This document shows positions 1-21,137 of a stretch of DNA of 21,137 bases, in pieces. Under the pieces are notes generated by a model that ran no database searches, had not been told where the DNA came from, and saw only the letters and a list, made by a program, of their open reading frames with translations. A program made the translations under genes and the position numbers. The stretch covers positions 1-21,137 of IMG/VR virus record IMGVR_UViG_3300037520_000667, one strand, 5' to 3'. The DNA comes from a virus. Within the stretch, counting starts at the first letter, position 1, and the number at the start of each line of letters is the position of its first letter.

Positions 1-635
1 TGCAGCGCGGCGTCGGGCTTTTCCGATTGCTTAACGGCGAACACCAGCTCACGCTCGAACATGCGCAAGCGATCGAACGACGTCACCCAGCGCTTGATCG
101 AGGGCGGCTGCACGATGATGCACTCGACTTCCTTCGCGCCGTCGAACACCCATGCCAAGCTCGGCGTGCGCATCGCAGCAGCGGCGTAGAACATCAGCTG
201 CGGATTCTCATCGGCCTCGACCGCCACGCCGTCACCAAATTTCCAATCCAATATAACGGCACGATCACCAATACGGCCAATAAGATCGCAAGAACCAAAC
301 ACGCCCGGAAGAAGATCGCCGAAGCCGACAGACTGTTCGACCGCGTATTCCATTTGTTCATCGGGGTCTACCTCATGCAGCGCCCGCACGGCAGGCACCA
401 GCTTGTCTTCGTATAGTTCTTGCGTCAGCGTGATGCCGTTGTACTCAGCGCCGATGATGGCGTCGACCCTTGCATCTGCGCCGAGGATCTCCGCGATGGC
501 GTTGTGCAACAGTGTGCCGGTGTCGGCGTATGAGCTTGATGGTTTAGGCGGCACTTGCTGGCAGAGCTTGACGCTGCCGGGGCAGTTGATGACGCGCTTG
601 GCGGTGCTGCCGCCGACGATATTGCTGTGTGACAC
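1..635 (-). CDS. PD-(D/E)XK nuclease, DUF2800-like (3' end outside window)
   Basis: Reading leftward from a GTG at 635 gives 211 codons open to the window edge, so the C-terminus is missing. An AGGAGA SD five bases upstream fixes the GTG start. The N-terminus has the pattern GGSTAKRVINCPGS (residues 8-21), typical of phage DUF2800 proteins. The Cas4/RecB-like nuclease core follows: H44 in GTLLH, D117 in GSCDLIG, the D130-x-K132 pair in LDWKFG, and the late motif NPQLMFYA (144-151) with Q146 and Y150. The family is predicted to be a DNA exonuclease in phage replication or recombination and usually sits with replication genes, as here. It is divergent from the VRR-NUC/SNF2 pair. Family assignment is strong from motifs; the exact substrate is unknown. 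Confidence 0.85.
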   Translation of the reverse strand, partial: MSHSNIVGGSTAKRVINCPGSVKLCQQVPPKPSSSYADTGTLLHNAIAEILGADARVDAIIGAEYNGITLTQELYEDKLVPAVRALHEVDPDEQMEYAVEQSVGFGDLLPGVFGSCDLIGRIGDRAVILDWKFGDGVAVEADENPQLMFYAAAAMRTPSLAWVFDGAKEVECIIVQPPSIKRWVTSFDRLRMFERELVFAVKQSEKPDAAL

Positions 636-720
636 TGAACTCTCCTGTACTACGTTTGATGCAAGGCTAGACCTGACGTTTTTGCTTGTCAAGCATCTTT
701 TTGTAAATTATTATCTGACG
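636..720. promoter_or_regulatory. Divergent promoter region with shared palindromic -35
   Basis: This gap separates two divergent transcription units. On the plus strand TTGTCA (686-691), a 17-base spacer and TATTAT (709-714) form a near-consensus sigma70 promoter. Its start site would fall at about 720-721, on the ATG of the VRR-NUC gene. On the minus strand TTGACA (692-687), a 17-base spacer and TAGCCT (669-664) form a second candidate, starting about 20 bases before the SD-preceded GTG at 635. Both -35 boxes lie in the near-perfect palindrome GCTTGTCAAGC (684-694). The boxes are visible; promoter activity is inferred. Confidence 0.6.
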
Positions 721-1008
721 ATGCGTGAGAAGACAATCGAAGAGTATTTGACGTGGGCCGTCGAGATCGTGGGCGGCGTGACGTTCAAGTTTCGCTCGCC
801 CTCGCAGCGCGGCGTGGCCGATCGGATCGTCTGTCTGCCGAATGGGCAGACGTGGTTTGTTGAGCTCAAGGCGCCGCACGGGCGCTTGTCGCCGCTGCAG
901 AAGGTCTTTGCCGACGTGATGAAACAAACGAATCAGCGCTATATCGCGCTATGGGATACGGAACAAGTCGATGCTTGGATTGCGTCCATATCAAGAGACT
1001 GGCGCTGA
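721..1008 (+). CDS. VRR-NUC domain nuclease
   Basis: This is a 95-residue standalone VRR-NUC protein, a compact PD-(D/E)XK nuclease fold common in phages and related to the nuclease domain of FAN1. The core is visible: GVADR (31-35, with D34), FVELKAP (46-52, with E48 and K50) and the downstream GRLSPLQ with Q60. The reading frame is open further upstream, but MREKTIEEYL is the usual N-terminus of the family, so I place the start at this ATG. No SD precedes it; the -10 box of a plus-strand promoter ends only six bases before the ATG, which suggests leaderless translation. Its 3' end overlaps the helicase gene by 38 bases. It probably acts with the helicase on branched or recombining DNA. Confidence 0.9.
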   Translation: MREKTIEEYLTWAVEIVGGVTFKFRSPSQRGVADRIVCLPNGQTWFVELKAPHGRLSPLQKVFADVMKQTNQRYIALWDTEQVDAWIASISRDWR

Positions 1009-2314
1009 CTTTCTCTTCGAGCGCGACCGCGCGATGGTGCTGGCGCCGATGGGCGCTGGCAAGACGGCGCTCACGCTCGTTGCTATGCGCGACGCGTTGG
1101 CTCAAGGCGTCGTCACCCGTTGGCTGGTGCTGGCGCCTAAGCGCGTCTGCGAGAAGGTATGGCCCATCGAGCAACCCAAGTGGGCGCATGGGCTCACGCT
1201 TGCTGTGGCGCTTGGCACGCCCAAACAGCGCGAGGCAGCGCTGGCGTCGTCCGCCCAGGTGGTTGTGACCAACTACGACAATCTGCAATGGCTTGCGGAA
1301 CAAGAGCTTAACTTCGATGGCGTGGTGTTCGATGAGCTCACGCGCCTGAAGAACCCCAGCGGCAAGCGCTTCAAGGCGTTCGAGAAGGTTGTGCAGCCCA
1401 TGAAGGTGCGTTGGGGTTTGACCGGATCGTTCACGTCCAACGGCCTCGAAGACGTGTTCGGGCAGTGCAAGATCATCGACCAGGCGCTACTTGGCCGCAG
1501 CAAGGGCGCCTTCCTGCAGCAGTATTTCGTCTGCACCAACCGCGAGTACGGCGAGTACATACCGCGCAAGGGGGCGCTTGAACAGGTCATGCAGCGCATA
1601 CGCCCCTCGACGTTCCTGCTAGATCCGGGGCAATACGTCGACACGCTGCCGCCGCTACACGTCAGCGAGCTGCGCTGCGACATGCCCGACCGCGAGCCGT
1701 ACGTGAAGATGAAGCGGGACTTCCTGTTCGACTTCCCCGACGCGCGCGTCATGGCGGCCAACGCCGGTGTGGTAACGGCCAAGCTGCAGCAGATGGCCTC
1801 GGGGTTTGTCTATAGCAGCGAGTCGAGCGCGGATCCGACGCGACCGGGCAAGTTCAATGTCACCAAGACGCCGGTGTGGTTCTCTGATCATAAGTTTGAT
1901 TTGCTCGATGAGGTGCTCGAGGGCAACCAGCGCGCGAATACGATTGTTGTGTACAACTTTGTTGAACAGCTTGCCGAGCTGCGCCGGCGCTATCCGCAGG
2001 CGGTGACGATCGACGAGCCGCAAGCCATCGAGCGCTGGAACGCGGGTAAGGTCGAGCTGCTATTGATCCATCCTAAGTCTGCAGGGCATGGGCTCAATCT
2101 GCAGCACGGCGGCTGCCGCATGGTGTTCTTGTCGCTGCCGTGGTCGCTCGAGGAGTACGAACAAACCGTTGGCCGGCTGCACCGCAGCGGCCAGGCGCAT
2201 GACGTGTGGGTTTATATCCTGCTCACGACGTCGACTGTAGACGAACGGATATGGGCGGCGCTGCATGACAAGCGCGCCATTTCGGATGTGGCATTAGAGG
2301 AACTGAAAACATGA
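971..2314 (+). CDS. SNF2-family DEAD-like helicase/translocase
   Basis: The 447-residue protein is a short superfamily 2 ATPase of the SNF2 type. Visible motifs are LRPYQ near the N-terminus (Q-motif-like), Walker A APMGAGKT (25-32), motif Ia LVLAPKR (52-58), motif II VVFDELTRLKN (118-128, DE in place of the full DEAH), motif III LTGSFTSN (150-157), motif V SAGHGLNL (370-377) and motif VI QTVGRLHRSGQ (398-408). SNF2 proteins translocate on double-stranded DNA rather than strictly unwinding it. The start follows from LRPYQ lying at residues 4-8. The gene overlaps the VRR-NUC gene and ends in an ATGA junction with the next ORF, so the three are one operon. VRR-NUC followed by SNF2 is a recurrent phage replication pair. 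Confidence 0.92.
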   Translation: MLGLRPYQETGADFLFERDRAMVLAPMGAGKTALTLVAMRDALAQGVVTRWLVLAPKRVCEKVWPIEQPKWAHGLTLAVALGTPKQREAALASSAQVVVTNYDNLQWLAEQELNFDGVVFDELTRLKNPSGKRFKAFEKVVQPMKVRWGLTGSFTSNGLEDVFGQCKIIDQALLGRSKGAFLQQYFVCTNREYGEYIPRKGALEQVMQRIRPSTFLLDPGQYVDTLPPLHVSELRCDMPDREPYVKMKRDFLFDFPDARVMAANAGVVTAKLQQMASGFVYSSESSADPTRPGKFNVTKTPVWFSDHKFDLLDEVLEGNQRANTIVVYNFVEQLAELRRRYPQAVTIDEPQAIERWNAGKVELLLIHPKSAGHGLNLQHGGCRMVFLSLPWSLEEYEQTVGRLHRSGQAHDVWVYILLTTSTVDERIWAALHDKRAISDVALEELKT

Positions 2315-2493
2315 ACTGGCAAGAGCTGAACGTCGCTATCCGCGACATGAGCGAGCAAGAGCTTAAGTATTTGATCGCGCAGGAGCGCCGGCAAAAGGTG
2401 CCGCGCAAGACGTTTCTGATCCGCATGCACCAGCGCTACAGCATGCTGCGCGATTTGCGCGAGCGGGCCGAGCTGCTCGAGGGGGTCGCTTAG
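2311..2493 (+). CDS. Small helical phage protein, unknown function
   Basis: A 60-residue, mostly alpha-helical, charged protein starts within the ATGA overlap with the SNF2 gene, so it is translationally coupled. The N-terminal half (NWQELNVAIRDMSEQELKYL) and the C-terminal RERAELLEG look like two helices around a basic KVPRKTF loop. I recognise the style as a common phage hypothetical but no catalytic motif. Its stop codon overlaps the stop of the convergent endolysin gene in the sequence TTAG. The position suggests a small accessory factor of the replication operon; no function can be assigned. Confidence 0.75.
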   Translation: MNWQELNVAIRDMSEQELKYLIAQERRQKVPRKTFLIRMHQRYSMLRDLRERAELLEGVA

Positions 2494-2828
2494 GCCGTAC
2501 GCTGGAAGTGCGGCACGTCTTTGAAGCTGCGCCAGAAGCCGCCCCACTGGTTTTTGGAGTTGAGCGACTCCCAGTATTGACCGAGCGGCGTCAAAGTTTT
2601 GACGTCGTATGTCAGTTTGCCGTCGATGAAGAAGTTGAGGTCGATCGCGCAGCGCTTTAGGTGCATCGAATTCATCGTCTTGCTGCGGCCGGTTTTGATG
2701 TAGATCTGCTGCTGCTCGAGCGTGCGGTAGAGCTCACCGCCCGTGACGGTAAAGCCGCGCTCGCTGGCGAACTGAATGAGCTTGCAGACGTCGAGTAAGA
2801 ACGCCGCCTGTTCGGTGACGAGGCTCAT
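2490..2828 (-). CDS. Endolysin, M15-family peptidase
   Basis: This 112-residue protein resembles phage M15 peptidases (VanY / L-alanyl-D-glutamate endopeptidase type), zinc enzymes that cut the peptide stems of peptidoglycan at lysis. The zinc-ligand pattern is visible: H56 and D63 in NSMHLKRCAIDLNF, and H107 in the C-terminal VPHF, preceded by the usual WGGFWRSF. There is no signal peptide, so it needs the upstream holin for export. It is slightly shorter than the T5 enzyme as I remember it, but the catalytic core looks complete. The start overlaps the holin stop by four bases. It is the last gene of the long leftward run and collides with the rightward operon. Confidence 0.88.
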   Translation of the reverse strand: MSLVTEQAAFLLDVCKLIQFASERGFTVTGGELYRTLEQQQIYIKTGRSKTMNSMHLKRCAIDLNFFIDGKLTYDVKTLTPLGQYWESLNSKNQWGGFWRSFKDVPHFQRTA

Positions 2829-3364
2829 TTGAGTACGTCCTTCAGCTGTTCGGCCTTGTCTTTGGATCCGATCGAGCTGCCGAAATAGTAGGCAACGATC
2901 TGGGTGCTGATGGCCGAGAGCACACCGAGCACGTAAACGAGCAAGTCCTTGCGCGTCGACTCGACCGGGCTGTTGTCGAACATGACGATGGCAAAGAGCA
3001 CAAACGTCATGCCGAGAAGCCCGAGCGCGAGCACCGGCGTGATGATTTTATTGAGGAGCGGCGCGTCTTTATTCGTGACGATGTTGGCCTCACGCTGCCG
3101 CGCGTCGATGGTGTCGCGTACGCCAAGCTCCATCTTGGCGAGGTCTAGGCGGTCTTCTTCGATGGCTAGGCGCTTGAGCTCCTCTTCATGCTCCATCGCC
3201 GCGATCTGCACCTTGGCCAGATCCTCGCTCGTCATGTCGGGTTTGATCGACACGCCGAGCTTGTCTTCCGTCCACTGCTTACCCTTGGCGAGCACCGCGT
3301 TGGCGACCAGGTTCAGCCCGTTAGAGAGCAACGGCTGCAGTAGACCAATGAGCGCTGGGGGCAT
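2825..3364 (-). CDS. Holin, 3TM GTA-holin-like
   Basis: The 179-residue protein has an N-terminal hydrophobic or amphipathic helix (about 3-26), a long charged helical middle (about 45-95, probably coiled coil) and two clear membrane segments at about 107-129 and 141-163, followed by a short charged tail. This layout matches the three-TM holin family first described from gene transfer agents (GTA_holin_3TM). Holins permeabilise the inner membrane and release the endolysin. The gene lies directly before the endolysin with a four-base overlap and directly after a small TM protein. Family assignment is from architecture and remembered sequence style. Confidence 0.75.
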   Translation of the reverse strand: MPPALIGLLQPLLSNGLNLVANAVLAKGKQWTEDKLGVSIKPDMTSEDLAKVQIAAMEHEEELKRLAIEEDRLDLAKMELGVRDTIDARQREANIVTNKDAPLLNKIITPVLALGLLGMTFVLFAIVMFDNSPVESTRKDLLVYVLGVLSAISTQIVAYYFGSSIGSKDKAEQLKDVLK

Positions 3365-3588
3365 TATTTGTCCGCCTTCTCGTCGAGCTTGTCGTTGATA
3401 CGGTTCAGCATCGCCTTAATTTCGTCAATGTCCGCGCGGTAGTCGACACGGGTGACGTACATGTGCGGAAGGTTGCGCACGTCTTTGTCGAGGCGCTCGA
3501 TCGTGCGGCTGATGTTGTTCAGGATCCAACCGCCGAAAAATGCTGCAGCACCCATGATGATGTTGAAGAGCGCCTGTCCGCTATCCAC
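3364..3588 (-). CDS. Small membrane protein of the lysis cassette
   Basis: A 74-residue protein with one N-terminal TM segment (about 7-24, rich in Ala, Gly and Phe), then a charged helical tail (about 26-74) ending in a predicted coiled coil (EIKAMLNRINDKLDEKADK). The start is GTG: a GGGAG SD lies five bases upstream and no equally good SD precedes the internal ATG at codon 12. The shape fits a spanin-like, antiholin-like or XhlA-like lysis accessory protein, with the tail on one side of the inner membrane. I see no lipobox, so it is not an outer-membrane spanin. It abuts the holin with a one-base overlap. Confidence 0.7.
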   Translation of the reverse strand: MDSGQALFNIIMGAAAFFGGWILNNISRTIERLDKDVRNLPHMYVTRVDYRADIDEIKAMLNRINDKLDEKADK

Positions 3589-3590
3589 GA

Positions 3591-6443
3591 TTACTCCCTG
3601 AGCGAGTTTTGATTGGTGACGATCGGCGCCAGGACGTTGATGACCGCGCCGCGCCCCGGCCTTTCTGCCGGCTTCTGCAGCCGCTCGCCAAACTTTGAAC
3701 GCTTACCCTGTACCAGCGCATCGGCCAGCGCCTTAGCGGCCGGCTCCGCGTTGATCATTTCCTTGGCGATCTCGACGGCCAGTTTGGCGTCGACGCGGCC
3801 TTGAGCGCGGGTGAGCAAGAAGTTGGCGTACGTGGCAATTTGATCGAACAGCTGCAGCTTAGGGCCAACCTGTTCAGACGCCAGCTCACGCACGCCGCCG
3901 CCTGCGGCCAAACCTTCACGCACCAGCGTCTTGAAGCGGCGCTGATCGGCCAAGTCGCGGCGAACATCGCGGATCAACTGCGCTACGTCGTCCGACGTGC
4001 GAGACAGCTCATCGAGCGTCGCGGCCGATTGCTGCGGGTCGACGCCGACCTTGTTAGCGGCGACACGCGCCTGGCGCTCGAGCGTCTTGAGCTCGTCAGC
4101 ACGCGGTGTAAACTCAGCCTCGACACGGGCGGTAACGGTTTCGCCCGTCTCTGCGAGCTTGGCGGCCTGTTCATCAAACGCGCGCAAGTCGTCAAATATT
4201 TTGACGCCGGACTCCTCGAGCGCGTTAAGCGCATCGTCGTGGCGGCGTAAAAACTCCGTGGATTTAGCCGGGTCGATAACGCCTTTGCGCACCACCGCAC
4301 GACGATAGTTGTCAATAATGCCTCGACGCACCGCGTCGACCGCGAGGCTATCTTCGCCGAGGGCGGCAACGAATCGCAGCGCGTTCTCTTCGCCACTGAG
4401 GATAGTCTTAACAACCGATTCCGGTGCGAGCTTCTGCACGTTGGTTGTCGTCTGCCGCTCAAGGTCAGACACCCAGCCGGTGCGGAATCGACCGATTACT
4501 TCGTCGGTAAATAACGTGCGCGCTTGTTTGTACAGCTTCGCCGCTTCAGTGCCCTGAGTGCCCTCTTCAATGGCTTTTTCAGCGGCGGTTTTAAGCCGCA
4601 TAAGGTTGCCTACAGTCCTATTAGACCCCGCATCATTAGCCCGCGTAAGCACCGCCAAATCTTCGTTAATGGCTTTAATAAACGCATCTGCGTCTTCTAG
4701 CGTAATCATGGTGGGCTCAACGCGTGTTGCGGGTTGGCCCATGACGGACGCGTATGGTTCACGCACCACACGCGATTGATATTCGGCCACGGCCCTAGCT
4801 GCGTTCGGCGCTTGTTCAGGGTTAAACACGTAACCTGAATCGTCCATCAGCGCGCGAGCAGTCTGCGCAACCAAATCAAAACTAAACGGCTCGGGGGCAG
4901 CGTCAAACGCCGCGCGATATGCCGGGCTAATGACTTCCTTCTTAACGCGGTCAAGTTCTTGCGCGCGGCGTTCAGTGACGGTCGAGCCCACTTCGAGCTG
5001 GCTTTCTTTCGGTAGCCGCCCAGCCAGTTTTTCGCGCTCTTGCCGCACCGCCTTTTGCGCTGCTTCATCTTGCTCAGACAGCGCGATTAGCCGGCTTGTC
5101 TGCTCTTGATCCAACTGATCGCGCAGCGCGTTAATGCTGCGCGTAGCGGACGCCAACTGGTTAGCGCGCCCCTGCTGCAACGCACTGTCGCGGGCCAGGT
5201 ACAAGTCTTTGATAATGGTGTCGGCGTTGCGTGCCGTGCCAAGCAGCGCGGCAAAACCCGACGCGTTCATAGCGGTCGCCACCTTCTCCGGCGGCGTGCC
5301 GAGCTCGAGCAGATTGATCGCCTGTTGCACCTTGTTGGGGTCGTTGTTGAACGCCTCGAGATACGCGCGAGCTTTGACGCGCTCGGCGCCACCCGGCGTA
5401 AACGGCTCGGTGATGTTGTACAGCGCGCGGGTGCCGGCCTTGATGGGCATCGTAGCAAGCGACGGCGCGACGCCGCCGGCCAAAGCTGCGCCCGTCAGCA
5501 GGAACGGATTTTCTGTGCCGGCTTCTTGCGCTGCGCCGACACCCGCGCCACCGCCGATAGCGGCGACAGTCTGGGCGCCCGGCTTGTCAGCGAGCGTAGT
5601 CAGCACGTTGCGAGTAACGCCGGGCTCAATCAGCGCGTTGCGTGGCGCTACGGGTGTCGGCGCAAAGACGTTGCCCGTAACACCTCGGGTCAAATCATCA
5701 GCAACGCCAATCGTCGCGCGCGTCGGTGCAACAAATCCACCAATCGTACGCATGGCGCGACGGCCAGATGACGTCGCCTCTGGTGCAACAATGTTCTGGC
5801 CGTACAACGCGTTGATCGCCTCGGAAGGCGTCATCATCGTTTCTTGGCCAAACGCCTGCAACAGTGGGTTGACAACGCCGCCTACCGCCAGATCGCTTGC
5901 CAACAAGCCGCCCGTAGTGACCGCCGCGCCAAGCGGGCCGCCAGCTAAGAAGCCCGCACCCGCAGCGGTCGCCAGCGGTGCGACGTTGGGGTTGACCACT
6001 TCACGCGCAATCCGCGCGGCGTCTTCCAGAAACGTCGTTTCTTGGCGCGGAGCCGGCAGCGCGTCGTCAGTGTATTTAGCAAACCGATTCTGGCGAGCAG
6101 GCGCAGTCGCCGCCGCCGCAGGCGCAGTTTGATCGGGCGGATTGACATATTTAGAAAAACGGTTAGAAGTTGTTTTCTCCGTTGAAGCCTCGGGGCCAGG
6201 TAACGCTGTGCCTAACGGGCGCCCGCCGGGCCCCGTTACCGTGACGTCTGATCTTTCTGCCGTCGGCGCAGCGCTTTGCCGCAATATCTGAAAAAGTTGC
6301 TGGCGAGATTGAGCAGGCAACGTGTCAAAACCTTCTGCGCCGCGTTCTAGCGGCAGCGGAGAAAGGCCATACGCGCGAAACAAATCTTTAGCTTTAACAA
6401 CTTCGTTTGGCGCTAAGTTTGCAAAAACATATGGGTCAGCCAT
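3591..6443 (-). CDS. Large internal virion / DNA ejection protein (P22 gp16 position)
   Basis: This 950-residue protein is the last of three genes lying where P22 has gp7, gp20 and gp16. It starts at an ATG preceded by AGGTGG. The N-terminal 135 residues are polar and Pro-rich with two short repeats, NRFSKY (94-99) and NRFAKY (119-124). Two Ala/Gly-rich hydrophobic stretches follow (about 155-196 and 291-335). The rest is long charged helices likely to form coiled coils. Such proteins are carried in the capsid and injected to build a channel across the host envelope; the hydrophobic stretches are candidate membrane inserts. I see no lytic transglycosylase motif. It is much longer than P22 gp16. 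Function is inferred from position and architecture. Confidence 0.7.
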   Translation of the reverse strand: MADPYVFANLAPNEVVKAKDLFRAYGLSPLPLERGAEGFDTLPAQSRQQLFQILRQSAAPTAERSDVTVTGPGGRPLGTALPGPEASTEKTTSNRFSKYVNPPDQTAPAAAATAPARQNRFAKYTDDALPAPRQETTFLEDAARIAREVVNPNVAPLATAAGAGFLAGGPLGAAVTTGGLLASDLAVGGVVNPLLQAFGQETMMTPSEAINALYGQNIVAPEATSSGRRAMRTIGGFVAPTRATIGVADDLTRGVTGNVFAPTPVAPRNALIEPGVTRNVLTTLADKPGAQTVAAIGGGAGVGAAQEAGTENPFLLTGAALAGGVAPSLATMPIKAGTRALYNITEPFTPGGAERVKARAYLEAFNNDPNKVQQAINLLELGTPPEKVATAMNASGFAALLGTARNADTIIKDLYLARDSALQQGRANQLASATRSINALRDQLDQEQTSRLIALSEQDEAAQKAVRQEREKLAGRLPKESQLEVGSTVTERRAQELDRVKKEVISPAYRAAFDAAPEPFSFDLVAQTARALMDDSGYVFNPEQAPNAARAVAEYQSRVVREPYASVMGQPATRVEPTMITLEDADAFIKAINEDLAVLTRANDAGSNRTVGNLMRLKTAAEKAIEEGTQGTEAAKLYKQARTLFTDEVIGRFRTGWVSDLERQTTTNVQKLAPESVVKTILSGEENALRFVAALGEDSLAVDAVRRGIIDNYRRAVVRKGVIDPAKSTEFLRRHDDALNALEESGVKIFDDLRAFDEQAAKLAETGETVTARVEAEFTPRADELKTLERQARVAANKVGVDPQQSAATLDELSRTSDDVAQLIRDVRRDLADQRRFKTLVREGLAAGGGVRELASEQVGPKLQLFDQIATYANFLLTRAQGRVDAKLAVEIAKEMINAEPAAKALADALVQGKRSKFGERLQKPAERPGRGAVINVLAPIVTNQNSLRE

Positions 6444-8507: not shown

Positions 8508-8966
8508 TTATGCGACCTCTTTGAAAAACGTGCGTTCCATCGGACGGAACCCCTTGCGGGCGTATAACTTTTCCATCTGCGGTGCCCGTTCGTCTTCTAA
8601 CGCAATCATGAACAAGGCGGACACACCTTGCTCATTTGCCCATGCTTCTATTGCATCATACATTGCTTGTCCAGCGCCATGCCCTCGGGCCTCGGGCGCG
8701 AGCCACCACCACAGCTCCTGCGCGACAAAGTGCGAGGGGCTGAAGTACATGGGGTAAGCCAGAGCGCCGGCGATGCCGACCGGGCGCCCGTCGACTTCCG
8801 TAATCCACATGCCGGCAAGCGGATTCTCGAGCGCCGATTTGTAGAATTGGCTAAAGCCTTCCGGGTCAAACGGAATAACCTGGTGCATGGGGCTCGCGTC
8901 ATGGAACGCCTGCCCCATCGGCAGATACGCCGGCAGATCCTCAAGCGTAGCGCGGCGGACGATCAT
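8508..8966 (-). CDS. GNAT-family N-acetyltransferase
   Basis: The 152-residue protein has the GNAT fold signature. Acetyl-CoA-binding motif A is PEARGHGAGQAM (91-102, with the R-G-x-G-x-G loop), preceded by the beta-4 strand AQELWWWLA. A late motif B, LYARKGFRPME (134-144), is typical of the family. The N-terminus MIVRRATLEDLPAY is the usual first strand and helix. It would transfer an acetyl group from acetyl-CoA to an amine; the substrate is unknown. It lies inside the virion gene run, sharing an ATGA overlap with the upstream beta-rich protein and abutting the ejection genes. It might modify a virion or host protein, or be a passenger gene. Confidence 0.92.
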   Translation of the reverse strand: MIVRRATLEDLPAYLPMGQAFHDASPMHQVIPFDPEGFSQFYKSALENPLAGMWITEVDGRPVGIAGALAYPMYFSPSHFVAQELWWWLAPEARGHGAGQAMYDAIEAWANEQGVSALFMIALEDERAPQMEKLYARKGFRPMERTFFKEVA

Positions 8967-19884: not shown

Positions 19885-21137
19885 TTATTTAGCCTCCAGT
19901 TCAGCGACACGCTGCCGCAGGGATTTGACTTCCGCAAGCAGCAACGGGACAAGTGAAGAAACATCAATTTGCTGGTAAACGGGCTTGCCGTCTTTATCTA
20001 CGGCATCTTTTTCACCACTAACTGCATACGGCGCAACCTCTTGCGCTTCGTGGGCAATCAGCATCGGACGCTCTACCGTCGCGCCGTTCATCTTGCCGAC
20101 GTAGACCTTTAGCGCATCTACCAACTCGCCAGAATTTGTAACTGGCCCAATGATGGTTTTGGCGCGGTAATCCGACGTTGTGTTGTAACGAACAAGCCCG
20201 CCAGTACGGTCGTAATCAATAGAACCGCGAAGTGTTGCGCCGGCATCGGTTATAAATTCTTCAAATTTATTGTTGCCAGAGGTTGCTTTATTCCAAAGAA
20301 CACTAGTGGCTGTTCCAGAATCATCGTTTATAAAAAGGCACGTTGAATTTCCTGCGCCCGTATTTGAAACGGCAAAAGACCGAGTTGACCAATTAGCAAT
20401 GTTTTCTTTTACGCCAAGACCACCCGCCATGTAATTAAGCGCCGTCCCCGCTGCATAGAAGTTCCAGCGGTTAGAGCCAGAGGCGATGTCGGAGTAGAAG
20501 CCGTAGTTGTTGGTGGCGCCGGTGAGAGTAGATTCAGCAATAAACCCAAATTGACTGGTAACAGTTGATCCCGCGCCAATTGTTCCTTGCGCCGCACTAA
20601 ACCCAACCAAATTTGCAGTTGTAAACGACGCCGCTTGGGTATTAAGAATTGACTGAATGCCATACCCGCCAAATGTAGAGCCACTTGGAACAGTGCCATT
20701 CATTAAAATCGCACGAGTAACAGTTCCTGATGTTGGGTATGTTCCTGTTACTTGAAATTTAGTCGTCGCATCCGCCGTCGCGCCGATCCCGACGTTGCCG
20801 GAGGAGTCAATACGCATCCGTTCGGTGTAAGTTGTGCCGTCAGACACTGATATTTGACCAAACGTCATCGCCGCATCTGATGGCGCAAAAGACCGGAAAT
20901 CCCCCGACTGAACGCCAAAACCTGCTTTTGAATTGCTGCTGCGGAAAACAAACAACTTTTGAGCGGTAACGTCGGTACCTAAATCTAGTTTTGCTCCCGG
21001 CGAAGCCGTCCCAATACCGACGTTGCCGGAGGAGTCAATGCGCATCCGTTCGGAGCCATTGGTAAACACAATCCAAGGTCGTGTACCAGCAGCAACATGG
21101 TAGATCGCGGAATTGTTGGCGTTGATGTGGTAGTTGA
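19885..21137 (-). CDS. Tail fibre with C-terminal S74 chaperone (5' end outside window)
   Basis: The frame is open to the right edge, so the N-terminus is missing; the first in-frame GTG (21069) has in-frame fibre-like sequence before it (HINANNSAIYHVAAGTRP). Two copies of ERMRIDSSGNVGIG, a widespread fibre/endosialidase-associated repeat, are present, followed by beta-rich domains. The last 96 residues form a Peptidase_S74 intramolecular chaperone: SDYRAK supplies the Ser and Lys of the self-cleavage site, followed by ERPMLIAHEAQEVAPYAVSG, QQIDVSSLVPLLLAEVKSL and a coiled-coil tail. The chaperone trimerises the fibre and is then cut off. This is a candidate receptor-binding protein. Confidence 0.88.
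   Translation of the reverse strand, partial: NYHINANNSAIYHVAAGTRPWIVFTNGSERMRIDSSGNVGIGTASPGAKLDLGTDVTAQKLFVFRSSNSKAGFGVQSGDFRSFAPSDAAMTFGQISVSDGTTYTERMRIDSSGNVGIGATADATTKFQVTGTYPTSGTVTRAILMNGTVPSGSTFGGYGIQSILNTQAASFTTANLVGFSAAQGTIGAGSTVTSQFGFIAESTLTGATNNYGFYSDIASGSNRWNFYAAGTALNYMAGGLGVKENIANWSTRSFAVSNTGAGNSTCLFINDDSGTATSVLWNKATSGNNKFEEFITDAGATLRGSIDYDRTGGLVRYNTTSDYRAKTIIGPVTNSGELVDALKVYVGKMNGATVERPMLIAHEAQEVAPYAVSGEKDAVDKDGKPVYQQIDVSSLVPLLLAEVKSLRQRVAELEAK
20789..20825 (-). repeat. Direct repeat in S74 fibre, copy 1
   Basis: A 37-base segment matches 21017-21053 with a single mismatch. Both copies encode the ERMRIDSSGNVGIG fibre repeat, in frame and 228 bases apart. Near identity at the DNA level suggests recent duplication or recombination. 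Confidence 0.85.
21017..21053 (-). repeat. Direct repeat in S74 fibre, copy 2
   Basis: This is the second copy of the 37-base repeat, differing from 20789-20825 at one position. The 228-base spacing is a multiple of three, so recombination between copies would keep the reading frame. Confidence 0.85.

Follow-up and report, generated by a model that had tools for sequence, protein, structure and literature searches.

How can a gap of only 85 bases serve two phage operons that are read away from each other? The question is raised by nt 636–720 of the window (the whole stretch of 21,137 nt analysed here), a 21-kb phage fragment from IMG/VR that encodes a P22-type coat protein. The genes on either side of the gap are as follows.

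3..635, minus strand: DUF2800 / PD-(D/E)XK exonuclease (Pfam PF10926, E=4e-26; PHROG exonuclease), first gene of the leftward replication operon, with a GTG start at 635; it extends past the window edge, and its N-terminus is kept in relatives
721..1008, plus strand: VRR-NUC nuclease, first gene of the rightward operon (PHROG_93 endonuclease, E=2e-23; the Pfam VRR_NUC match, E=0.0016, is under the curated cut-off)
971..2314, plus strand: SNF2-type helicase (Pfam SNF2-rel_dom, E=3e-13; PHROG_62 DNA helicase, E=4.5e-122), the start of this ORF overlapping the end of VRR-NUC
2311..2493, plus strand: small ORF of 60 aa from the ORF list, last of the rightward operon, without a match in Pfam or PHROG (both searched)

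G001 (L098–L099), a relative of 38.4 kb that carries a terminal repeat of >=100 bases, is apparently complete and can serve as a reference genome for this uncultured phage family. Its leftward operon continues beyond DUF2800 with a methyltransferase-like protein, DNA polymerase A and a primase/helicase-type protein (DUF5906). Both directions therefore feed replication or recombination genes. The family is one of small freshwater phages, whose hosts are probably Betaproteobacteria. The host is inferred from metagenome bins only, and binned phage contigs are weak host evidence: the bacterial bins with relatives are mostly Betaproteobacteria (several keep the layout), and single relative contigs were binned as Armatimonadota, Bacteroidota, Beijerinckiaceae and Oscillospiraceae. 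Elsewhere in the window, judging from the translations, an ORF amid the structural genes (nt 8508–8966) resembles a GNAT acetyltransferase, and a tail-fibre-like ORF with SSGNVGIGT repeats (nt 19885–21069) ends in what resembles an S74-type self-cleaving chaperone.

Layout of the intergenic region

The preliminary description had placed back-to-back promoters in the gap, sharing a palindromic -35 region, with a Shine-Dalgarno (SD) sequence before the leftward gene only. Direct reading of the sequence confirms this base for base: AGGAGA precedes the minus-strand gene, and nothing similar is found before the ATG at 721.

641..646, minus strand: Shine-Dalgarno AGGAGA of the leftward gene, invariant in the window's clade
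657, minus strand: predicted leftward +1 (A), 7 nt beyond the -10; this base does not vary in the clade
664..669, minus strand: leftward -10, TAGCCT, 17 bp from TTGACA; all 10 clade members agree at positions 2 (A), 5 and 6 (T)
684..694, no strand: near-palindrome GCTTGTCAAGC holding both -35 boxes; only the TTGTCAA core is conserved
686..691, plus strand: rightward -35, TTGTCA (5/6 consensus), invariant in the clade
687..692, minus strand: leftward -35, TTGACA (6/6 consensus), invariant in the clade
698..702, plus strand: T-tract within the spacer of the rightward promoter; as CTTTTT it is also common in relatives
709..714, plus strand: rightward -10, TATTAT, 17 bp from the -35; positions 2, 5 and 6 invariant in the clade
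721..723, plus strand: ATG start and predicted +1 of the leaderless message, from the family-wide -10-to-ATG spacing and the absence of an SD

The sequence GCTTGTCAAGC is an inverted repeat with perfect 5-bp arms and a single central base, and the two -35 boxes overlap by five of their six bases. Core elements of opposite orientation overlap, as in overlapping divergent sigma70 promoters, with both 17-bp spacers conserved in the clade. The window's leftward -10 has just 3/6 consensus bases, and the predicted leftward leader is 22 nt long and bears the SD. On the other side, six bases (CTGACG) separate the rightward -10 from the ATG. An AT-rich spacer near -18 has been reported to be stimulatory (PMC12825309).

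One promoter alone is uninformative, because a sigma70 consensus scan of window nt 1–6000 is at chance level (2 sites vs 1.6 +/- 1.3 in shuffles). A back-to-back pair with overlapping -35 boxes occurs once in the window, and 10 of 300 dinucleotide-type shuffles contain one; in the complete relatives G001 and G007 the pair in the gap is the sole one genome-wide to share a -35, and leaderless-type consensus matches elsewhere in complete genomes amount to a few per genome. A second minus-strand promoter-like match of the consensus scan, at nt 736–707, was treated as noise. As far as sequence can tell, the main support for the arrangement comes from relatives, not from the window alone.

Relatives and conservation of the shared -35

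Eighty IMG/VR loci, one annotated phage and 13 contigs from bacterial bins were fetched, the viral loci having been found via SNF2. BLASTN and tblastn against named phages gave one close relative, MW202483, in which the gap is atypical. Most fetched loci keep the divergent pair, with the DUF2800 operon leftward and VRR-NUC and SNF2 rightward, and the gap between them is usually 69–121 bp. It reaches 200–700 bp in ten loci (L009, L015, L025, L033, L039, L043, L044, L051, L060 and L062), by what look like gene insertions on the DUF2800 side; the VRR-NUC-proximal promoter block stays in place, but is altered in L043. VRR-NUC starts were set by protein alignment, independently of promoter motifs, and promoter scores were taken from E. 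coli matrices. The -10 and SD counts below refer to 42 dereplicated gaps, which are not independent because the loci share ancestry.

The claim of a shared -35 is borne out in the window's clade, where the box is real and conserved. All ten of the closest sequences share the seven-base core TTGTCAA and, in both -10 boxes, A2 and T6, the -10 bases that matter most to sigma. Invariant columns in the clade make up 13 of 19 promoter positions vs 8 of 60 others (p=1e-5). Across the family, a TTG-N(1-2)-CAA core is present in 24 of the 42 gaps. Measured from this core, the leftward -10 shows a sharp peak at 17 bp (62% at >=2 bits; neighbouring distances <=12%) and the rightward -10 a peak at 16–18 bp; the core assigned in L001 is a chance TTGTTCAA downstream of the true TTGTCAA, and those of L043 and L019 are also badly placed.

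The expectation that related phages would conserve both boxes and their spacing largely held: the boxes are mostly kept, but the layout is gone from a few distant relatives (L088, L093, L094), at least two of which then carry an SD. A further seven loci (L043, L082, L083, L091, L024, L031, L074) have no good -10 where one is expected; in L043, L082 and L091 the ATG comes right after a T-run, yet no good -10 lies seven bases upstream. The shared -35 is also not universal, because a short-register group (L006, L014, L036, L060 and kin), in which the ATG directly follows the T-run, shares a palindrome that contains extended -10s, while a clear -35 is lacking.

The palindrome might instead be mainly an operator, at which a dimeric regulator of phage or host turns both directions on and off or toggles between them, but this we consider improbable. 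Although inverted symmetry is present, as GCTTGTCAAGC in the window and as TAGCACAG-N9-CTGTGCTA in the L006 group, its form differs among subclades, and within the clade only TTGTCAA is conserved while the outer GC arms are not. Regulator-controlled overlapping divergent promoters are known from pLS20, lambda and PY54; here, no regulator gene adjoins the gap, CTTGTCAAG occurs 0–2 times per genome, and the recurrence of TTGTCAA, CTTGTCAAG, TTGTGCAA and TGTGCTA in seven genomes or fragments reveals no operator-like set. The earlier proposal of a single regulator acting at the palindrome is thus unsupported, because conservation of the TTG-N-CAA core is explained by promoter function. A terminator (the stem and T-run of the L006 group) was likewise considered and rejected, because the window arms leave a 1-base loop, which cannot fold.

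A probable leaderless rightward message

That the rightward operon begins with a leaderless message, as the preliminary description had proposed, is strongly supported at the sequence level by the -10-to-ATG spacing, the absence of an SD, the near-exclusive use of ATG and the presence of an SD where a leader exists. A sigma70-like -10 (>=3 bits) ends 5–9 nt before the VRR-NUC start in 36 of the 42 gaps, as against 5.3 ± 2.3 in 200 mononucleotide shuffles, which preserve base composition only and the best of which reached 13 gaps. The best -10 site lies at a distance of 7 nt in 25 loci and 6 nt in 11, the window having 6. Strong SD sequences (<= -4.5 kcal) precede 10% of VRR-NUC starts; the share is 92% for DUF2800 and 18% for random sites (VRR-NUC vs DUF2800, p=6e-12). 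Start codons differ in the same two genes, with 41 ATG and 1 GTG for VRR-NUC against 31 and 9 for DUF2800 (p=0.006), and the only locus with a GTG-start VRR-NUC, L031, carries an SD. The layout agrees with what is expected of leaderless genes, a -10 that places +1 at the start codon and an AUG lacking an SD. Low 5' structure at the VRR-NUC start is weak evidence, gene starts being often unstructured in general.

Both promoters could be real and VRR-NUC still be translated from a longer, leadered transcript, with the ATG-proximal -10 secondary. This alternative, which we rate somewhat below the operator, draws on L008, where the start is displaced about 20 nt further downstream of the -10, leaving a leader of about 20 nt with AGGAG, and on SD-like stretches in L031, L005 and L045; but the mean -10 profile has a single clear peak, at 6–7 nt from the start, no conserved alternative -10 was seen at leader-producing distances, and most loci are without an SD. 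Direct reading of L093 and L094, in which the gap is gone, finds GGAG and GAGGAG upstream of VRR-NUC. The rightward message thus appears, from comparison of the sequences, to start directly at the AUG without a ribosome-binding site, in a layout kept across dozens of diverged relatives.

Two promoter registers

In the short-register loci the right arm of the box is TGTGC-TAAACT or a close variant, which makes an extended -10 ending 7 nt upstream of the ATG; the palindrome of the L006 group carries both extended -10s in its arms. Counted over the loci, the box has an extended -10 (TGn-TA) in 0 of 32 long-register vs 11 of 17 short-register cases (p=4e-7), and three of the six short-register exceptions (L041, L056, L080) are run-parsing artefacts. 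Some automatic labels were wrong: L080 is truly long-register and L051 truly short-register, and L091 was labelled far, though its ATG follows the T-run. The T-tract, as CTTTTT, keeps a constant distance to the box whichever the register (window nt 698–702; L007, L062, L070); one register has it within the spacer, the other between -10 and ATG. No single promoter position explains its role.

On the SNF2 tree, used qualitatively only, the two registers interleave, long-register L009 grouping with short-register L014 and short-register L060 lying near long-register L070. Unless recombination has swapped gaps between loci, this means more than one change of register. Since the -10-to-ATG distance remained constant through these changes, it is this distance that seems to be selected, and here lies the strongest argument for selection. 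Functionless chance matches in an AT-rich gap, which the chance-level scan of a single sequence might suggest, are a highly improbable explanation in view of the family-wide positional conservation, the invariance of A2 and T6 in both -10 boxes and a register switched at the same distance from the ATG.

Proposed mechanism

We favour, and hold to be probable, a compact divergent sigma70-type promoter with a shared TTG-N-CAA -35, a leaderless rightward and an SD-led leftward message, and alternating occupancy. The sequence elements, their spacing and their conservation are observed; from these we infer promoter activity, the leaderless 5' end, exclusion and co-expression. A single TTG-N-CAA box would supply the -35 to left and right alike, each -10 lying about 17 bp away from it, and a host sigma70-type holoenzyme would bind it in either orientation. 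Leftward transcription would deliver the SD-led replication operon with its 22-nt leader, while the rightward transcript would start at, or within 1–2 nt of, the VRR-NUC AUG and be translated without a leader. Going by the geometry and general knowledge, the expected polymerase footprints would overlap and occupancy would be exclusive. Because both holoenzymes would need the same -35 bases, only one could be bound at once, and the two arms would be co-expressed by alternating occupancy.

Competition for polymerase, which the preliminary description had also suggested, is geometrically forced in this arrangement; how far it may matter for regulation would depend on how strong the promoters are. 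An E. coli study of 2026 found competition negligible at low-activity bidirectional promoters: the basal activity of the five tested was too low, and competition emerged once one direction was strengthened (PMC12825309). For the phage gap, co-expression of two replication modules looks likelier than a switch.

Comparison with known systems

The prokaryotic bidirectional promoters described by Warman, Grainger and Wade (PMC12825309, PMC10268837) likewise use one pseudo-symmetric element, two polymerase orientations and mutually exclusive binding. In that class, however, the -10 is shared and start sites are typically 18 (also 10 or 23) bp apart, whereas the phage gap shares the -35, has separate -10 boxes (664–669 and 709–714) and predicted start sites 64 bp apart (657 and 721). 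It therefore falls outside the shared -10 class. Overlapping divergent promoters with proposed polymerase exclusion are also found in pLS20 (Pc/Pr; PMC4207663), but there one -10 is proposed to lie on the other promoter's -35, and the regulator Rco and DNA looping are involved.

Messages beginning at the AUG within a compact divergent phage gap are likewise known for lambda cI (PRM) and for PY54 cI and cro (PMC4488713). Those leaderless genes encode operator-controlled repressors, whereas here a nuclease-helicase operon is served. The gap is not a lambda-type PR/PRM immunity switch, since its flanking genes do not encode repressors, and repeated operators are not seen. In Deinococcus-Thermus a -10 just before the ORF similarly gives leaderless mRNA (PMC12340547), but as a host-wide mode of expression in another phylum, while the present case is a conserved phage locus with a divergent partner that has an SD.

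The phage gap offers a compact example of promoter symmetry achieved via the -35 instead of the -10. Most known leaderless messages of phages come from repressor genes, and here the leaderless design would be that of a nuclease-helicase operon, conserved in dozens of uncultured phages. The natural variants (register switches, and a leadered relative with an SD) make selection on the -10-to-AUG distance testable. More speculatively, and with odds we judge to be against it, the symmetric promoter may be a built-in allocator, in which one polymerase at a time chooses between the leadered replication operon and the leaderless nuclease-helicase operon, translation of the latter being favoured when 70S ribosomes dominate in infection. 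If true, such an allocator with 70S-favoured leaderless translation would explain why the register could change while the distance from -10 to AUG stayed constant.
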